Source: Gammaproteobacteria bacterium HGW-Gammaproteobacteria-13 (GTDB lineage Bacteria > Pseudomonadota > Gammaproteobacteria > Pseudomonadales > Pseudomonadaceae). From it: 64,000 nt of DNA. Under the pieces are notes generated by a model. It ran no database searches and was not told the origin of the DNA. It worked only from the letters and a program-made list of their open reading frames with translations. The DNA is taken from contig PGZH01000001.1 of assembly GCA_002840155.1 (NCBI GenBank), positions 124,001-188,000 of the forward strand. Direction: 5' to 3'. Made by a program: the position numbers and the translations under genes. Positions 3,857 to 37,040 of this stretch are shown here, in pieces; position 1 is the first letter of the stretch, and the number at the start of each line of letters is the position of its first letter.

Positions 3857-5082
3857 GCGCAGGCCGCTGCCGGTAGCGGCTGCAGTTGGAACTGCGTTGC
3901 CAGTGCCTGACTGGCCTGCTGATCGCTGTGCGGGAAGACGAAGGCCAGGCCGTTTGAATCCTGACGCAGCGGTAGCAGAGGCTGGGCGGGCAGGTCTTTG
4001 CACAGCAGTTGCCAGCCGCGCACGCCGCGCATATTTGGCAGGTCGCCCCGCAACAGACCACCGAAGAAACCCAGCTCGCTGATTTCCACCGTCCACTCGC
4101 CGGCTTCGGCATGCTGCAGGCGTGCATGACGCTGGCTGGGCGGCACGCGTGGCTCGTGGCGTTTTTCCAATTGCAGCAATTGCTGCTGGGCCAGCAGGCT
4201 GCTGCCTGGGCTGCGACTTGGCAACGCTTCGCCACGCAGAAACGGGTTGTACAGGCTGGCGCAGGCGTCGCGTTGTTCGAATTGCGCCAGGTGATCGGCG
4301 TTGTGAATCAGCGCGCAACTGGCTTGGGCGCAGGCGGCGGCAAAGTGCGCGTGCTCCCAGGGTTGGGTGAAGTGGTCATATTCGCCGGCCAGCACCAGCG
4401 TCGGGCAGCTGGGGTGCAGGTGAAAGCCCTGAAAATCCAGCAGGCGCTGGCTGTTCTGTCGGTAACGCTCGATATCGGCGGCTGACAGACGCTGGATCTG
4501 CCGCAGCAATGCCTTGCGAAATACCGGGGCTACGCCGGTCTGTTCCAGGCGCAAAGGGTTAAGCAGGCCGGTCAGTGCGCCATGGGCAAAGGCCTCGCAC
4601 CTGCCTTCGGCCAGCAGCGCCAGGCCTTCCTGTAGCAGCAGGCGCGCACCGGGGCGGCCGAAGGCGGTGATCCCGGCCAACAGCACGCGGGCGCAGCGCT
4701 CGGGGTGACGGGCGGCGAATAGCGCTGCCAGGGCTGAACCATAGGACAGGCCGATGGGCATCAGTGGCGGCAGGTCGAGTTCTTCGGCGAAGGCGGCGAT
4801 CAGGTCGGCCAGCTGCTCCAGGCTCAGGTCGGGCACCAGTTGCAGGTTGCCGCCCTGGCTGGGCAGGTCGAGCAGGATCACCGGGTGTTCACCGAGCAGC
4901 TCGCTGACCTCGGCGGCAAACGAGCGAAAGCTCTGGAATGCGCCGCCCAGCAGTAACACGGGCGGACGCGGGTCATGGCTGCGGCAGGCGTAGGCCTGGT
5001 AGTGCAGGCGCAGGTCGCCGAGATGCAGCACCTGCGGGGCTTCGTTGAGTTGTGCGGCGCAGTAGTCGGTACGGTAATGCAT
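3853..5082 (-). CDS. Alpha/beta hydrolase with a PilZ-like C-terminal domain
   Basis: Taken from the ATG at 5082 (409 residues), which has GGTGGGA 6-7 nt upstream. The ATG at 5139 lacks a ribosome site and lies inside an inverted repeat. Residues about 20-280 form an alpha/beta hydrolase: nucleophile elbow GLSYGS (Ser113), Asp in GEYDHF (about 236) and His in NADHLAQF (about 264). Residues about 305-400 differ: RHEPR (308-312) fits the RxxxR motif of PilZ, and VEISELGFFGG resembles its D/NxSxxG motif with Glu in the first position, ending in GLAFVFPHSDQQAS, like the last PilZ strand. The protein may therefore couple a hydrolase or acyltransferase to c-di-GMP, or carry a degenerate PilZ fold. 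Substrate is unknown. Confidence 0.8.
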   Translation of the reverse strand: MHYRTDYCAAQLNEAPQVLHLGDLRLHYQAYACRSHDPRPPVLLLGGAFQSFRSFAAEVSELLGEHPVILLDLPSQGGNLQLVPDLSLEQLADLIAAFAEELDLPPLMPIGLSYGSALAALFAARHPERCARVLLAGITAFGRPGARLLLQEGLALLAEGRCEAFAHGALTGLLNPLRLEQTGVAPVFRKALLRQIQRLSAADIERYRQNSQRLLDFQGFHLHPSCPTLVLAGEYDHFTQPWEHAHFAAACAQASCALIHNADHLAQFEQRDACASLYNPFLRGEALPSRSPGSSLLAQQQLLQLEKRHEPRVPPSQRHARLQHAEAGEWTVEISELGFFGGLLRGDLPNMRGVRGWQLLCKDLPAQPLLPLRQDSNGLAFVFPHSDQQASQALATQFQLQPLPAAACA

Positions 5083-5130
5083 GCTGATCCCACCCCGGCG
5101 GTCGGCCGCCTGTCTTGCTTTTAATGGCAA

Positions 5131-5159
5131 GGTAAACATTCGGACGGTTTTTGTTTACC
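5131..5159. promoter_or_regulatory. Inverted repeat GGTAAACA-N13-TGTTTACC, candidate operator
   Basis: Perfect 8-bp arms at 5131-5138 and 5152-5159 are separated by 13 nt in the 264-nt divergent region between the alpha/beta hydrolase gene and proA, about 50 nt upstream of the hydrolase start. The size and A/T-rich arms resemble a dimeric regulator site rather than a terminator, since no T-tract follows on the hydrolase side. The cognate regulator is unknown. Confidence 0.45.
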
Positions 5160-5346
5160 TAACCTTCGGGCGGCAGAGTGGCGCTAGTGTCACTGTTTCT
5201 CGGGATGGCCTTCTGGTCGGCCCCTGGCGGCGTTACCGCAGGCTGCGGCGAACGCGCTGTATACCGTCTGCCGCGCAGCGCTGGGCGTGGAGCGGCGCGA
5301 CCGTTATACTCAGCGACTTTTTTCAACCGCCAGACCTGCCAAGACC

Positions 5347-31609: not shown

Positions 31610-32980
31610 TTAGAGCAGGTCAAAGGGCAGGGTGCTGACGATGCGCAGCTCGTTGACGCTGCCATCGGCCTGGTTCTGGCTGGCCTTGTGCGACATATAG
31701 GTGACCTTGAACGTGCTGTCCTTGATGGTTCCGCTCTGCACCTTGTAGCTCGCCATCAGCCCGTACTCGCGGTGCTTTTCACCGTCCTGGCTGAGCACGT
31801 CGGCGTAGTTGGCGTGGGCGCCATTGCGTCCGCCGTCGTAGTGGGTGCCGTCGATATCCCAACCTTTGGCGTACCAGGCCATGGTGCTCAGTCCGGGTAT
31901 GCCGAAATAGCTCCAATCCGTTTCATAGCGGATCTGCGCGGATTTCTCGTTCGGGCCGTTGTAGTCGGAAAGCAGCGAGTTGGCCAGGTAGATAGCGGAC
32001 GTTTCGTGCACGTAATCAAAGTATTCATCGCCATCGACCTGTTGCCAGGCCAGGGTCAGGTCGTGAGCCTGATGCCCAAGGGTGAAGGCCAGGCTCCAGG
32101 TGTTGTTGTCGATATAACCGGCTTCACGCGTGCCACTGTCACGGGTGTGGTAGCCGTTGAAGGCCGTGCGCAGGGACAGTCGCTCGCGGTCACCGAGGTC
32201 GTGGGTAATGCCCAGGTAGTACTGGTCCCAGATGTCTTCAAAACGCCCGCCATACAGCGCAACTTCCAGGTTATCCAGCGCCTTGTAGTTGCCGCCCAGG
32301 TAGTTGTAGCGCTCGCCTTCGGCTTGGCGAGTGCCGTATTCGGTGGTCAGGGCTTCATCGCCTGCGCCGGTGCGCGGGCTGGTGCGGCGAAAGCTCCCCG
32401 CCTGCAGGCTGAGGTTGTCCAGCTCTTCGCTGACCAGTCCGACGCCATTGAAGCTGGAGGGCAGGGCGCGGTTGCCGATGGAGTTGAACACCGGCGTCTC
32501 GACCATAAAGCGTCCGGCTTTGAGTTCGCTGCGGGAAATACGCGCGCGCAGGTTGGCGATGCCGAGTTTGGACCAGTGCTCCTGGCCATGACCGTTGCTG
32601 TCGGCCAGGGTGCGGTTGCCGCCGCCGGCAATACGACCCTTGCCGCGTTCCAGGTTGATGGCATTGAACGCCGCCACATCGATGCCGAAACCGACCGTGC
32701 CCTGGGTGTAACCGGAGCTGTACTTGAGCTGTGTGCCCTGCACCCAGGTGTCGCGCGACTGGGTGAACTGCGGGCCGCCATCCTTGGGGATGTTCAGGCC
32801 GAAGTGCCCCTTGAAGCGCTCGCGGGCGGCAAAGTTGCGGGTGCTGAGGGTTAGGCTCTGGCCTGCGAAAAAGCCGCTGGCGTTGTCGGCCTGGTTGCTG
32901 ATCTCGGCAGCCTGGCTGTAACCGCTGAGGGCAAGCAGTGCGAGGCTTAAAGGAATGCTGGTGCGAAGGGCGAATGTCAT
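31610..32980 (-). CDS. opdP: OprD-family porin OpdP
   Basis: A 456-residue outer-membrane beta-barrel from ATG 32980, with AGGAG upstream. The signal peptide ends in YSQA. OprD-family segments include SGFFAGQSLTLSTRNF, QFTQSRDTWVQGTQLKYSSGYTQG-type sequence, GRFMVETPVF and GRFEDIWDQYYLG. The C-terminus ends in a hydrophobic residue (PFDLL), as needed for BAM recognition. In P. aeruginosa the orthologue in this locus takes up glycine-glutamate and other small peptides and also admits carbapenems. It supplies the outer-membrane step for the Dpp system. Confidence 0.92.
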   Translation of the reverse strand: MTFALRTSIPLSLALLALSGYSQAAEISNQADNASGFFAGQSLTLSTRNFAARERFKGHFGLNIPKDGGPQFTQSRDTWVQGTQLKYSSGYTQGTVGFGIDVAAFNAINLERGKGRIAGGGNRTLADSNGHGQEHWSKLGIANLRARISRSELKAGRFMVETPVFNSIGNRALPSSFNGVGLVSEELDNLSLQAGSFRRTSPRTGAGDEALTTEYGTRQAEGERYNYLGGNYKALDNLEVALYGGRFEDIWDQYYLGITHDLGDRERLSLRTAFNGYHTRDSGTREAGYIDNNTWSLAFTLGHQAHDLTLAWQQVDGDEYFDYVHETSAIYLANSLLSDYNGPNEKSAQIRYETDWSYFGIPGLSTMAWYAKGWDIDGTHYDGGRNGAHANYADVLSQDGEKHREYGLMASYKVQSGTIKDSTFKVTYMSHKASQNQADGSVNELRIVSTLPFDLL

Positions 32981-33002
32981 CTGTTGGGCTCCTGTAACGG
33001 CT

Positions 33003-33010
33003 TTTTTATT
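33003..33010 (-). promoter_or_regulatory. A-rich Hfq/Crc-type motif in opdP leader
   Basis: On the minus strand AATAAAAA fits the AANAANAA consensus of Hfq/Crc targets and lies about 22-30 nt upstream of the opdP start. A second similar run (AATAAAAA, 33147-33154) lies further upstream. Catabolite repression of peptide uptake would make sense; untested. Confidence 0.35.
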
Positions 33011-33161
33011 AGGCAAGGAGTGCTCATACGGACTACCTGTCGCAGGGGCGAAACAGCCCCGGCAACGCTCGGAAAGCGCATTCTTGCGAACGTTTTGGCA
33101 GCTACGAAACACTCAGCCGGTGGTGGCCGGACGAGGAATACAGTCGTTTTTATTAGGTGTT

Positions 33162-33196: not shown

Positions 33197-34795
33197 TCAG
33201 CGTTTGTTGCTGACGCCGTAGAAGCTGTTGCGCCCGAAGGGGCTGATCTCGAAGCCTTCTACGCTGTTGCGCATGGGCTGGTAGACCGTTGAGTGCGCGA
33301 TCGGGGAGATCGGCAGCTGTTGCTGGATGATCTGCTGCGCCTGCTGATACAGCTCGCTGCGGGCGTCGCGATCGGTAACGGCCTTGGCCTGCTTGACGAT
33401 CTTGTCGTAGCCGGCGTCGCACCATTTGGAGAAGTTGTTGCCGTTGACCGAGTCGCAGCCGTACAGGGTGCCCAGCCAGTTGTCCGGGTCACCGTTGTCG
33501 CCAGTCCAGCCGATCAGCATGGCGTCGTGCTCGCCGGCATGGGCGCGCTTGATGTACTCGCCCCACTCGTAGCTGACGATCTCTGCCTTGATGCCGACCT
33601 TGGCCCAGTCGGCCTGGAGCATTTCGGCCATCAGTTTGGCGTTAGGGTTATACGGGCGCTGTACGGGCATGGCCCACAGGGTGATCTTGGTGCCCTCGGC
33701 AACGCCAGCCTGCTTGAGCAGGGCCTTGGCTTTCTCGATGTCTTGTGGGATGGCGCTGATGCTTTCGTCATAGGACCACTGGGTCGGTGGCATGGCGTTG
33801 ACCGCCAGTTGCCCGGCGCCCTGGTAGACCGCACTGATGATCGCCGGTTTGTCGATGGCCATGTCCAGCGCCTGACGCACTTCGACTTTGTCGAATGGCG
33901 CGCGGGTCACGTTGTAGGCGATATAACCCAGGTTGAAGCCAGGCTGGCTGGGCACCTGCAGATTCGGGTCTTTTTGCAGCGCGACGAGATCAGCTGGGCG
34001 CGGGTTGAGGGTGACCTGGCATTCGCCAGCCTTGAGCTTTTGCGCCCGCACCGAGGCGTCGGTGTTGATGGCGAAGATCAGGTTGTCGATCTTTACGTCT
34101 GCCGGCAGCCAGTAGTCCTTGTTGCCCTTGAAGCGGATCTGCGCATCTTTCTGGTAGCGGTTGAACACAAACGGGCCGGTACCGATCGGCTTCTGGTTGA
34201 TGTCGGCGGCCTTGCCGGCCTTGAGCAACTGCTCTGCGTATTCGGCGGAGTGGATGGCGGCGAAGTTCATCGCCAGGTTCTGGATAAAGGCCGCGTCCAC
34301 ATTATTGAGGGTGAAGCGCACGCTGAGGTCGTCGACCTTCTCCACCTTGGCGATGTTCTTGTCCAGCCCCATGTCGGTGAAGTAGGGGAACTCGGTCGGA
34401 TAGGCCTTACGGAATGGATGATCCTTGTCGAGCATGCGCTGGAAGGTGAAAACCACGTCATCAGCGTTGAACGTGCGGCTGGGGGTGAAGTAGTCGGTGC
34501 TGTGGAATTTCACCCCGGGACGCAGTTTGAAGATATAGCTGAGGCCGTCTTCACTGGCCTGCCATTCAGTCGCCAGGGCCGGTACGGCCAGGGTGCTGCC
34601 GCGTTCGAACTGGGCGAGGCGGTTGAACAGGGTTTCCGAGGCTGCATCAAAATCGGTGCCGGTGGTGTACTGGCCTGGGTCGAAGCCGCCGGGGCTGCCT
34701 TCGGAGCAGTACACGAGGTTGCTGGCGGATGCGTAAGTCGAGCCGAGAAACAGTCCGGCAACGAGCATGGCCTGGATGGACGTGTGAGTGCGCAT
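33197..34795 (-). CDS. dppA3: Peptide ABC transporter substrate-binding protein (DppA3 position)
   Basis: A 532-residue periplasmic dipeptide-binding protein from ATG 34795 with GAGG upstream. The signal peptide ends in YASA, then SNLVYCSEGSPGGFDPGQYTTGTDFDAA. Further SBP_bac_5 landmarks are FTPSRTFNADDVVFTFQRMLD, IGTGPFVFNRYQKDA and WTGDNGDPDNWLGTLYGCD (part). It is closely similar along its whole length to the protein at 37.1 kb. A sigma-70-like promoter and two candidate PsdR sites lie about 150-200 nt upstream, leaving a leader of roughly 140 nt. Confidence 0.93.
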   Translation of the reverse strand: MRTHTSIQAMLVAGLFLGSTYASASNLVYCSEGSPGGFDPGQYTTGTDFDAASETLFNRLAQFERGSTLAVPALATEWQASEDGLSYIFKLRPGVKFHSTDYFTPSRTFNADDVVFTFQRMLDKDHPFRKAYPTEFPYFTDMGLDKNIAKVEKVDDLSVRFTLNNVDAAFIQNLAMNFAAIHSAEYAEQLLKAGKAADINQKPIGTGPFVFNRYQKDAQIRFKGNKDYWLPADVKIDNLIFAINTDASVRAQKLKAGECQVTLNPRPADLVALQKDPNLQVPSQPGFNLGYIAYNVTRAPFDKVEVRQALDMAIDKPAIISAVYQGAGQLAVNAMPPTQWSYDESISAIPQDIEKAKALLKQAGVAEGTKITLWAMPVQRPYNPNAKLMAEMLQADWAKVGIKAEIVSYEWGEYIKRAHAGEHDAMLIGWTGDNGDPDNWLGTLYGCDSVNGNNFSKWCDAGYDKIVKQAKAVTDRDARSELYQQAQQIIQQQLPISPIAHSTVYQPMRNSVEGFEISPFGRNSFYGVSNKR

Positions 34796-34806
34796 GAATA
34801 CCTCAT

Positions 34807-34814
34807 TTATTCTT
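34807..34814 (-). promoter_or_regulatory. A-rich Hfq/Crc-type motif next to dppA3 ribosome site
   Basis: AAGAATAA on the minus strand is an exact AANAANAA match, in the run AAAAAAAGAATAAATGAGG (34800-34818 region) that leads straight into the GAGG ribosome site. Hfq with Crc bound here would block initiation. Inference from the motif alone. Confidence 0.4.
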
Positions 34815-34941
34815 TTTTTGGGCGTCATTGAGGGTCAGCCTCGTGGGCTGTGATCAGCACCGCTGCGTTCCGGCCTATCGGGTGAAGAGGCCGGCCCAGA
34901 GCTGCGGTGGAGCGAAAACGCTCAGCAACCTGTCGCGCTCG

Positions 34942-34970
34942 AAATTAAGTCATGCTGAAATTGAGGTCAA
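34942..34970 (-). promoter_or_regulatory. dppA3 promoter
   Basis: On the minus strand -35 TTGACC (34965-34970), a 17-nt spacer and -10 TAATTT (34942-34947). The spacer and -10 overlap a candidate PsdR site, exactly as in the mdpA promoter. Confidence 0.65.
34943..34961. promoter_or_regulatory. Candidate PsdR operator, dppA3 proximal
   Basis: AATTAAGT-CAT-GCTGAAAT matches 13 of 16 arm positions of the ATTTWAGT-N3-ACTWAAAT pattern defined at psdR/mdpA. It overlaps the dppA3 -10 box and spacer. Centre at 34952. Confidence 0.6.
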
Positions 34971-34974
34971 CAAA

Positions 34975-34993
34975 AATTAAGCGCTACTAACAT
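34975..34993. promoter_or_regulatory. Candidate PsdR operator, dppA3 distal
   Basis: AATTAAGC-GCT-ACTAACAT matches 13 of 16 arm positions of the same pattern. Its centre (34984) lies 32 bp from the proximal site, on the upstream side of the -35 box. Confidence 0.6.
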
Positions 34994-35035
34994 TTGTTGT
35001 CATCACACTGTGCTAGCGCGCACCCGTTATCGGGG

Positions 35036-35599
35036 TCAGGGCGTGCTGTGGTCGTCGAACAGGCTGAGGGTGGTGATGGCCAGCATTTCCGCTACGTCGT
35101 GGCCGACATTGGCCAGGCGATGGGCCTTGCCGGCATCGAAGTGCACCGAGTCGCCCGCGCTTAATGGGTACTGGCGGCCGTCGATGGTGTAGAGAATCTT
35201 GCCGGATAACACGTAGGCGAACTCGGCGCCTTCATGGGCGATCAGCTCGGATTGGTAGCCGACCGGCATGCTCATTTTTACTGCGTTCAGCTGGTTGCCC
35301 GGGAAGCTGCTGGAAAGCCGCTCATAGGCCAGGGGCTGGCCTTCGATGGTGTAGCGCACCCGTTCGCCCTGGTGCGAGTCGGGTTCAGGTTGCGGCGGTT
35401 GATCGAATAGCACGTTGAGCGGGATGTCGAGCGACTTGGCGATGCTGGCCAATGAGGAAATCGAGATGCCGGTCAGGTTGCGCTCGGCCTGGGAGAGGAA
35501 GCTGGCGGTGAGCCCCGATTCGCTTGCGACTTCATTCAGGGTCTTCTTCGCGGCCCGCCGGTAGCGGCGCAAACGTTCTCCGATGCGATCTGCGGTCAT
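35036..35599 (-). CDS. psdR: XRE-cupin transcriptional regulator PsdR
   Basis: A 187-residue repressor. Residues about 7-62 are an XRE-type helix-turn-helix (RIGERLRRYRRAAKKTLNEVASESGLTASFLSQAERNLTGISISSLASIAKSLDI; key part SGLTASFLSQAERN). Residues about 110-180 are a cupin_2 barrel (HEGAEFAYVLSGKILYTIDG, GDSVHFDAGKAHRLAN) that could sense a ligand. In P. aeruginosa the orthologous psdR represses the neighbouring dipeptidase and dpp genes, and its loss speeds growth on peptides. Here it is divergent from mdpA. A TATACT -10-like box at 35627-35632 (minus) may serve psdR. Confidence 0.9.
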   Translation of the reverse strand: MTADRIGERLRRYRRAAKKTLNEVASESGLTASFLSQAERNLTGISISSLASIAKSLDIPLNVLFDQPPQPEPDSHQGERVRYTIEGQPLAYERLSSSFPGNQLNAVKMSMPVGYQSELIAHEGAEFAYVLSGKILYTIDGRQYPLSAGDSVHFDAGKAHRLANVGHDVAEMLAITTLSLFDDHSTP

Positions 35600-35675
35600 A
35601 ACCCTGGCTCGTGCTGAAAGAGCGCCAGTATACCGTTCGGCGCCGCGCTTAAAAGTCGTCGGACAATACCTGTGA

Positions 35676-35694
35676 ATTTTAGTAGCACTAAAAT
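35676..35694. promoter_or_regulatory. Candidate PsdR operator, mdpA distal
   Basis: ATTTTAGTAGCACTAAAAT is a perfect palindrome with 8-bp arms around AGC. Centre at 35685, just upstream of the mdpA -35 box. Confidence 0.7.
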
Positions 35695-35699
35695 AACCG

Positions 35700-35728
35700 T
35701 TGCGCTCTATTTAAGTCGGACTTAAATT
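35700..35728 (+). promoter_or_regulatory. mdpA promoter
   Basis: -35 TTGCGC (35700-35705), a 17-nt spacer and -10 TAAATT (35723-35728), about 40 nt before the mdpA ATG. The second operator lies over the spacer and -10, a classical repression geometry. Confidence 0.65.
35709..35727. promoter_or_regulatory. Candidate PsdR operator, mdpA proximal
   Basis: ATTTAAGTCGGACTTAAAT is a perfect palindrome with 8-bp arms around CGG. Centre at 35718, 33 bp from the distal site, so the two lie on nearly the same face of the helix. Confidence 0.7.
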
Positions 35729-35767
35729 TCACCGAGCCAACTTACAGATCATACAAAGGAGCGCGAG

Positions 35768-36994
35768 ATGACTCTCGGTGTCGGAGGTTGTACGCCGCAA
35801 CAGGCGCTTGCCGGGCTGCACAACATGATGGATGGCGTGCAACCAATCGCGCTTGGTGAATACCAGGCGCGGGTGAGTCGCGCCCAGGCGCGGATGCAGG
35901 CCGAAGGTATTGCCGCGATGTTTATCAACGCCGGCAGCAATCTGCAGTATTTCACCGGCGTGCGCTGGCATCCCAGTGAGCGCATGGTGGGCGCGATTCT
36001 CCCGGCCGAGGGGCCGCTGGAATATCTCGCTCCGGCGTTCGAAGTCGGCACCATTCGCGATTTCCAGGTGCTCGCTGGCGCTATCAATACCTGGCAGGAG
36101 CATGAAAGCCCCTATCAGTTGCTGCTCGATACGCTGCAGCGGATGGGTATCGCGGCGGATCAAGAGCAGCCCGTGAAAATCGGCCTCTGTCCGACGCTGG
36201 CGTTCTTTATGGTTGATGGCATTCGCCGCTTGGCCAGGGGCTACGAGTTTGTCGATGCGGCAGTGGTCAGCGGCTACTGCCGGCAGCGCAAATCAGCGGC
36301 CGAGCTGGCCCTGATGCAGCGCGCCAAGGACATGACCCTTGAGGTGCACAAGGCCGTCGCCAGTGTGCTGCACGAAGGCATCAGCACCACAGCGGTCGCC
36401 GAGTTTATCCAGCAGGCGCATCGCGCCGTTGGCGCAGCGGGCTCGACGTTCTGCATCGTGCTGTTTGGCCCTGCCAGCGCCTTTCCCCATGGGGTGAAAC
36501 ATGCACAGACCCTCAAGCAGGGCGATATGGTGCTGATCGACACTGGCTGCCAGGTGCATGGCTACCTGTCGGACATCACCCGCAGCTATGTCTTCGGCGA
36601 GCCTAGTCAGCGTCAGCGCGACTTCTGGAATATCGAGAAGGCCGCGCAATTGGCTGCATTCGAGGCCGCGCAGCTCGGCCAGCCCTGCCAGGCGGTGGAT
36701 GCTGCGGCGCGGCGCACTCTGGAAGCGGCGGGCCTGGGCCCGGATTACAAATTGCCGGGTCTGCCGCATCGCACCGGGCACGGCATAGGTCTGGATATCC
36801 ATGAAGGGCCCTATCTGGTGCGTGGCGATCTGACACCGCTGGCCGAAGGCATGTGCTTCAGCAATGAGCCGATGATCTGCGTGCCGGGTGAGTTCGGCGT
36901 ACGCCTGGAGGATCACTTCTACATGAGCGCCGATGGGCCGCGCTGGTTCACCGTGCCGAGCCATTCGCTGGATGACCCATTCGGGTTGGGATAA
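35768..36994 (+). CDS. mdpA: M24-family dipeptidase MdpA
   Basis: A 408-residue metallopeptidase of the creatinase/prolidase fold. An N-terminal creatinase-like domain (about 25-175) is followed by a pita-bread catalytic domain with the five metal ligands in order: Asp in DMVLIDTGCQ, Asp in GYLSDITRSY, His in HRTGHGIGLDIHEGP, Glu in CFSNEPMI and Glu in GVRLEDHF. It has no signal peptide and is cytoplasmic, so it would cleave dipeptides brought in by the Dpp transporter. The start has AAAGGAG 8-9 nt upstream. It is divergent from psdR and followed by a strong terminator. The symbol follows P. aeruginosa (metallo-dipeptidase in the PsdR regulon). Confidence 0.88.
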   Translation: MTLGVGGCTPQQALAGLHNMMDGVQPIALGEYQARVSRAQARMQAEGIAAMFINAGSNLQYFTGVRWHPSERMVGAILPAEGPLEYLAPAFEVGTIRDFQVLAGAINTWQEHESPYQLLLDTLQRMGIAADQEQPVKIGLCPTLAFFMVDGIRRLARGYEFVDAAVVSGYCRQRKSAAELALMQRAKDMTLEVHKAVASVLHEGISTTAVAEFIQQAHRAVGAAGSTFCIVLFGPASAFPHGVKHAQTLKQGDMVLIDTGCQVHGYLSDITRSYVFGEPSQRQRDFWNIEKAAQLAAFEAAQLGQPCQAVDAAARRTLEAAGLGPDYKLPGLPHRTGHGIGLDIHEGPYLVRGDLTPLAEGMCFSNEPMICVPGEFGVRLEDHFYMSADGPRWFTVPSHSLDDPFGLG

Positions 36995-37011: not shown

Positions 37012-37040
37012 AAAACGGCGGCCATTGGCCGCCGTTTTTT
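37012..37040. terminator. Bidirectional intrinsic terminator between mdpA and dppA
   Basis: Arms AAACGGCGGCC (37013-37023) and GGCCGCCGTTT (37027-37037) have a 3-nt loop, with a T-run to 37040 on the plus strand and a matching A-run on the other side. It serves both convergent genes. Confidence 0.92.

Follow-up and report, generated by a model that had tools for sequence, protein, structure and literature searches.

The 64,000-nucleotide stretch analysed here (the window; positions 124,001 to 188,000 of contig PGZH01000001.1 from Gammaproteobacteria bacterium HGW-Gammaproteobacteria-13) carries two perfect palindromes between psdR and mdpA, and sequence comparison indicates that they are very probably docking sites of PsdR, a known repressor of genes for the use of small peptides. 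The distal predicted operator of mdpA, ATTTTAGTAGCACTAAAAT, occupies positions 35676-35694 and consists of 8-bp arms with 3 nt between them; the proximal one, ATTTAAGTCGGACTTAAAT, occupies positions 35709-35727 and consists of 9-bp arms with 1 nt between them, both being listed without a strand. Their centres are 33 bp apart and the pair spans 52-53 bp. An earlier note made from the sequence alone had described two perfect palindromes of the form ATTTWAGT-N3-ACTWAAAT at this spacing, and both were found where it placed them. Its attribution of the palindromes to PsdR is likewise supported by their match to a published consensus, by conservation in orthologous gaps and by co-occurrence with psdR.

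The whole window contains three perfect palindromes built of 8-bp arms around a 3-nt centre: the mdpA pair and a G+C-rich one at 37016. Among 20,000 dinucleotide shuffles of the psdR-mdpA gap (35600-35767), 58 contained at least one such palindrome and none contained two, so the pair is not attributable to chance. With up to three mismatches allowed, ATTTWAGT-N3-ACTWAAAT has four matches in the window against 0.02 expected; the remaining two, with three mismatches each, lie upstream of a dppA-like gene and were absent from the earlier note. That note knew of no published PsdR consensus, but one is in print: for P. aeruginosa, the available text of PMC10965056 gives TTAAG-N5-CTTAA at the promoters of mdpA and dppA3 and credits it to PMC7901475. 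The latter, as far as its available text goes, combined DNA affinity purification sequencing (DAP-seq), RNA sequencing, reverse-transcription quantitative PCR and electrophoretic mobility shift assays (EMSA), describes a palindromic motif and reports direct repression of mdpA and dppA3 by PsdR in P. aeruginosa. The proximal site of the window contains the exact published core (TTAAG-TCGGA-CTTAA), and the distal core, TTTAG-TAGCA-CTAAA, is symmetric with two mismatches to it. A repressor site read from raw sequence alone thus turned out to match a published consensus.

The placement of the palindromes relative to the predicted promoter is consistent with repression. The -35 position of mdpA (TTGCGC, 35700-35705, plus strand) lies between both operators, and the -10 hexamer (TAAATT, 35723-35728, plus strand) is mostly made by the right half of the proximal operator. 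As had been proposed, the second palindrome lies over the spacer and the -10, where it overlaps 14 of the 17 bases of the former and five of the six of the latter. A second set of sites (34943-34993) is found at the dppA promoter, on the other side of psdR from mdpA, and comprises an outer pair at a distance of 32 bp and a weak middle site, all on the minus strand. The proximal PsdR-like operator, ATTTCAGCATGACTTAATT (34943-34961), has one core mismatch, the degenerate middle site, ATTTTTGTTGACCTCAATT (34959-34977), has three mismatches and contains the -35, and the distal PsdR-like operator, ATGTTAGTAGCGCTTAATT (34975-34993), has two mismatches. The dppA -35 (TTGACC, 34965-34970) and -10 (TAATTT, 34942-34947), also on the minus strand and 17 nt apart, are placed relative to their proximal operator just as those of mdpA are: at both promoters the proximal core begins 11 nt downstream of the first -35 base, the -10 opens at position 13 of that core, and the spacer is 17 nt, a register that recurs in most relatives.

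Conservation was examined in psdR loci of related organisms. Ninety loci with a psdR relative were found in named genome contigs, of which the best 80 were compared together with the window (81 loci); the psdR-mdpA gap could be defined in 70 of these and the psdR-dppA gap in 71. The conservation in orthologous gaps on which the earlier note had staked its inference was found: every one of the 70 mdpA gaps holds a site with at most two mismatches, 66 hold one with at most one mismatch, and all 71 dppA gaps hold a site with at most one mismatch. In shuffled gaps, a site at one mismatch was present in a mean of 0.48 sequences for mdpA and 0.295 for dppA. The paired motif proved common but not universal: a second site lies 31-35 bp away in 48 of 70 gaps at mdpA (shuffle mean 0.01) and in 67 of 71 at dppA (shuffle mean 0). 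Counted over all pairs of sites with at most two mismatches each, the mdpA spacing is 33 bp in 27 gaps, 34 in 19, 35 in one and 17 in four, the last being outgroup loci, with spacings of 11, 22 and 33 in one further locus (L109) and none in 18. Automatic choice of the proximal site picked a different site in at least L038, L046, L058, L107 and L108 at mdpA and L067, L073, L076 and L082 at dppA; spacing tallies from that choice are too low and were not used.

Base-level conservation was assessed in 46 two-site mdpA gaps with a proximal site of at most one mismatch, which leaves out L106 and L046 of the 48. Information content is 1.50-1.75 bits per position in both 19-mers against 0.38-0.71 in the flanks, although, as far as the cores go, this contrast follows from picking gaps that have both of them; no selection was made on spacing, on the -35 or on the flanking A/T positions. 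Conservation is centred on the two 19-mers and the -35, whereas the 3-nt centres vary. The -35 reads TTGACC or TTGACG in 38 of the 46 gaps, compared with TTGCGC in the window, and these sequences from relatives support the predicted promoter register at mdpA. The elements of the "good sigma-70 promoter" described earlier (TTGCGC, 17 nt, TAAATT) are present, but "good" was an overstatement and is not borne out, because they match only 3/6 bases in the -35 and 4/6 in the -10 (7/12 overall), and a consensus scan of 34800-35800 at 9/12 or more bases listed no promoter.

The middle dppA site, which overlaps the -35, has zero mismatches in nine relatives compared with three in the window, and with at most two mismatches and 16 bp from its neighbour it is present in 20 of 71 gaps. 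At mdpA, a middle site with at most three mismatches and 15-18 bp from the chosen proximal site occurs in only five outgroup loci (L106 and L110-L113), and a separate site list adds a further one at L107 (17 bp, three mismatches). The best candidate for a middle site at the mdpA promoter of the window has six mismatches and was rejected.

Across genomes, the operators in their promoter context follow psdR. An even sample of 398 genomes from the genus was scanned for a composite pattern of -35, fixed gap and operator core, with psdR counted as present at E-values up to 1e-40 and mdpA at E-values up to 1e-120. The pattern occurs in 28 of the 398 genomes, comprising 28 of the 32 with psdR and none of the 366 without it, and all 42 copies lie within 252 bp of psdR; the reversed control had no match in these 398 genomes. 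The four psdR genomes that were missed are G251, G277, G297 and G318. In the window, the strict pattern matches at dppA only and not at the mdpA promoter, because the -35 of the latter is TTGCGC. mdpA was detected in 24 of the 398 genomes, all of which also have psdR; genomes with mdpA and without psdR were sought and none was found. A wider regulon was also considered in the genome under study and rejected: with up to three mismatches, ATTTWAGYNNNRCTTAAWT matched 31 times on the forward and 41 times on the reverse strand, compared with 33 and 46 times for its reversed control. No further PsdR targets are claimed in this genome, since zero or one mismatch is reached only by the sites of the psdR locus.

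Two loci depart from the usual gene arrangement. In the betaproteobacterial Pseudogulbenkiania subflava (L105), psdR lies after an M24 peptidase gene of the same orientation, and the 600 bp before and roughly 900 bp after psdR yielded no site with at most two mismatches. Upstream of the peptidase gene, about 2 kb from psdR, are ATTTTAGTGGTACTTAAAT and ATTTAACTGTGACTTAAAT, with one mismatch each and 34 bp apart, and a weaker single match occurs at 1572. The first of the pair follows TTGACA in the 11-nt register, and its partner lies downstream of this promoter-anchored site, which suggests that site-site spacing matters in its own right. In another locus, where no dppA follows psdR (L056), a three-site array still does, with 2, 0 and 1 mismatches at 16-bp steps; the next open reading frame of at least 250 aa reads by eye as an ABC permease.

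From the sites, their conservation, the -35/-10 register and the psdR link computed here, we infer how PsdR would act in this species, and we regard as highly likely the explanation that, as a whole, combines PsdR operators, promoter occlusion, help from the distal site, control of dppA and release by dipeptides. A PsdR dimer on the proximal site would cover the mdpA spacer and -10 and exclude RNA polymerase. The distal site, about three helical turns further upstream and on nearly the same face, would take a second dimer, which would cover the region just upstream of the -35 and strengthen repression, presumably through cooperative help between the dimers. Across psdR, the dppA3-like gene would be under the same kind of control. 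Dipeptides would be sensed by the cupin domain, releasing PsdR, and small-peptide uptake and cleavage would be induced together.

Several observations weigh against this explanation. The PsdR binding data in the available published text come from P. aeruginosa, and binding in the present species is an extrapolation from them. The compared loci and genomes are related, and the counts are accordingly not independent. The core alone is unspecific, as TTWAG-N5-CTWAA has four matches per strand in this genome against six for the reversed control. The most distant relative (L116, 33% identity) is without a site. Finally, 18 of the 70 mdpA gaps have no second site at the two-mismatch threshold, nine of them in records titled Stutzerimonas, and the distal mdpA site is therefore dispensable in some lineages.

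These single-site gaps also favour the view that PsdR acts only at the proximal palindrome and that the distal one, whether ancestral or weak, has no function, as do the off-palindrome right half (CTGAA) of the distal site in 36 of the 46 two-site gaps and the single palindromic sequence per promoter in the available published text. We consider this unlikely, though deserving of some weight: information content in the distal 19-mer is close to that in the proximal one (1.58 and 1.55 bits at spacing 34, 1.50 and 1.75 at spacing 33, in gaps picked for having both), and the spacing is mostly 32-34 bp at two different promoters and 34 bp in P. subflava, where the partner lies on the opposite side.

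A role of the distal site mainly in psdR autoregulation is improbable. The site does lie on the psdR side of the psdR-mdpA gap, with the psdR start codon 76 bases from its edge, and 81-86 nt separate its centre from psdR in 40 of 52 multi-site gaps. However, a constant distance to psdR requires no distal function, because it is likewise kept in gaps without a second site, the psdR-to-proximal distance being 115-120 nt in eight of the nine Stutzerimonas-titled single-site gaps and 203 in the ninth (L057). In addition, a possible psdR -10 (TATACT, 35627-35632, minus strand) has the operators upstream of it and overlaps neither, and the start point that it implies would leave the distal site some 55-75 bp upstream; 58 of 70 gaps have a TATA[CA] no more than 60 nt from psdR. 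In the group without mdpA, a site pair in the 600 bp upstream of psdR is absent from all nine psdR loci, whereas eight of the nine keep the dppA-side pair (at most two mismatches). Four of them (L060, L063, L071 and L072) have one weak palindrome with two mismatches that touches the psdR start, which may be chance or autoregulatory and leaves this idea some room.

It is very improbable that a different regulator, for instance another XRE-cupin protein, acts at the palindromes: the genome does encode two weaker PsdR-like matches (26% and 30% identity), but the composite pattern is confined to genomes with psdR and always adjoins that gene, and the sites match the PsdR consensus of the available published text. 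Finally, although perfect inverted repeats could form RNA hairpins of a terminator or attenuator, we give this almost no credence, as the arms are A+T rich, no terminator-like site is listed in 34800-35800 and, given the register-placed promoter, both palindromes would lie upstream of the start point and outside the mdpA RNA.

Beyond the individual operators, the comparison suggests from sequence that PsdR sites often occur in fixed-spacing groups of two or three. Tandem sites at fixed spacing are present at both window promoters, and second sites in relatives are mostly 32-34 bp away and in some cases 16-17 bp, in one register with the -35 and -10. Sites 32-34 bp apart would face roughly the same side of the helix, because this is near three helical turns, and a neighbour at 16-17 bp would be on the other face. 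We put forward tentatively, as a possibility that falls somewhat short of an expectation, that PsdR operators are cooperative lattice arrays with steps of about 16-17 bp, in which one site is anchored over the spacer and -10 and its partners lie one or two steps off on either side, and that the lower and upper EMSA bands represent one and two dimers on a two-operator probe. In the available text of PMC7901475, two PsdR bands are read as monomer and dimer on target regions of 83-96 bp. The 52-53 bp mdpA pair fits within such a probe, and one versus two dimers is therefore a possible alternative. A half-palindrome mutant that ran faster, also described in that text, fits both readings alike.

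As for the genes of the locus, psdR (35036-35599, minus strand) encodes a 187-aa XRE-cupin repressor with HTH_3 and Cupin_2 Pfam domains above cut-off, in agreement with the helix-turn-helix (HTH) repressor with a cupin domain that had been read from the sequence. The protein is 84% identical to that of a P. aeruginosa PA7 record, where the gene order is the same, and comparison with solved structures matched the HTH and cupin parts separately. All 81 proteins compared contain the recognition segment FLSQAERN, a universality that partly reflects selection because it was one of the six peptides used to find psdR loci. mdpA (35768-36994, plus strand) encodes a 408-aa M24 metallopeptidase with Peptidase_M24 and Creatinase_N Pfam domains, and is followed at 37016-37034 by the perfect G+C-rich palindrome CGGCGGCCATTGGCCGCCG and a T run, which looks like an intrinsic terminator. 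The dppA3-like gene (33197-34828, minus strand) encodes a predicted dipeptide-binding protein with Pfam SBP_bac_5, its best NCBIfam model being DppA, below that model's cut-off. It has two candidate starts, the listed 34828 and an in-frame ATG at 34795, and in some relatives the alignment begins only at residue 12 or beyond, which would fit the latter. An OprD-family porin gene (31610-33112) lies downstream on the same strand and is possibly co-transcribed. A plasmid search returned 227 matching records, all of which cover less than 80% of the query; in the five rows listed the match is to the dppA part, and the search was not used.

Some relatives show irregularities at the same locus. In L060, which lacks mdpA, the region between psdR and dppA (4765-5200) reads by eye like a dppA-type gene remnant, and mdpA in L067 and the dppA after psdR in L087 give partial alignments and may be broken genes. 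P. piscis MC042 has two psdR loci (L071 and L072) with the same alignment coordinates on two scaffolds, reflecting either duplication or an assembly artefact.

The comparison provides a testable architecture for PsdR. If the arrays are cooperative, dipeptide induction should be switch-like and the monomer/dimer gel-shift reading of the available published text would need re-examination. The regulator is also relevant to experimental evolution, since laboratory evolution of P. aeruginosa on casein commonly brings mutations in psdR, according to the available text of PMC10965056.

As far as the available published text describes it, the P. aeruginosa PsdR system has the core TTAAG-N5-CTTAA in common with the window, as well as the regulator and the two target genes. 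The PA7 locus (L043) resembles the window in its gene order and in having site pairs at mdpA, 34 bp apart, and at dppA, 32 bp apart. PsdR operators are thus known as a kind, of which the window copy is a further member, whereas the array architecture may be new: the published text has one palindromic sequence per promoter, compared with the two or three sites at fixed spacing and the common -35/-10 register found here. No description of PsdR operator arrays was recognised in the available text of PMC7901475, PMC10965056, PMC12021273 and PMC12565409, whose figures and supplements, outside that search, may already show one. Literature searches likewise listed no recognisable paper on such arrays for PsdR or for XRE-cupin regulators. 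The PsdR site before lasR, given as TTAAG-N5-CTGAA in the available text of PMC10965056, has the same right half as the commonest distal mdpA site of relatives. Unlike that lasR site as published, the distal mdpA site of the window is symmetric (TTTAG/CTAAA). In phages lambda and 434, HTH dimers occupy tandem operators, which are adjacent palindromes over a promoter. Compared with these, the possibly cooperative PsdR sites follow spacing steps of 16-17 and 32-34 bp.
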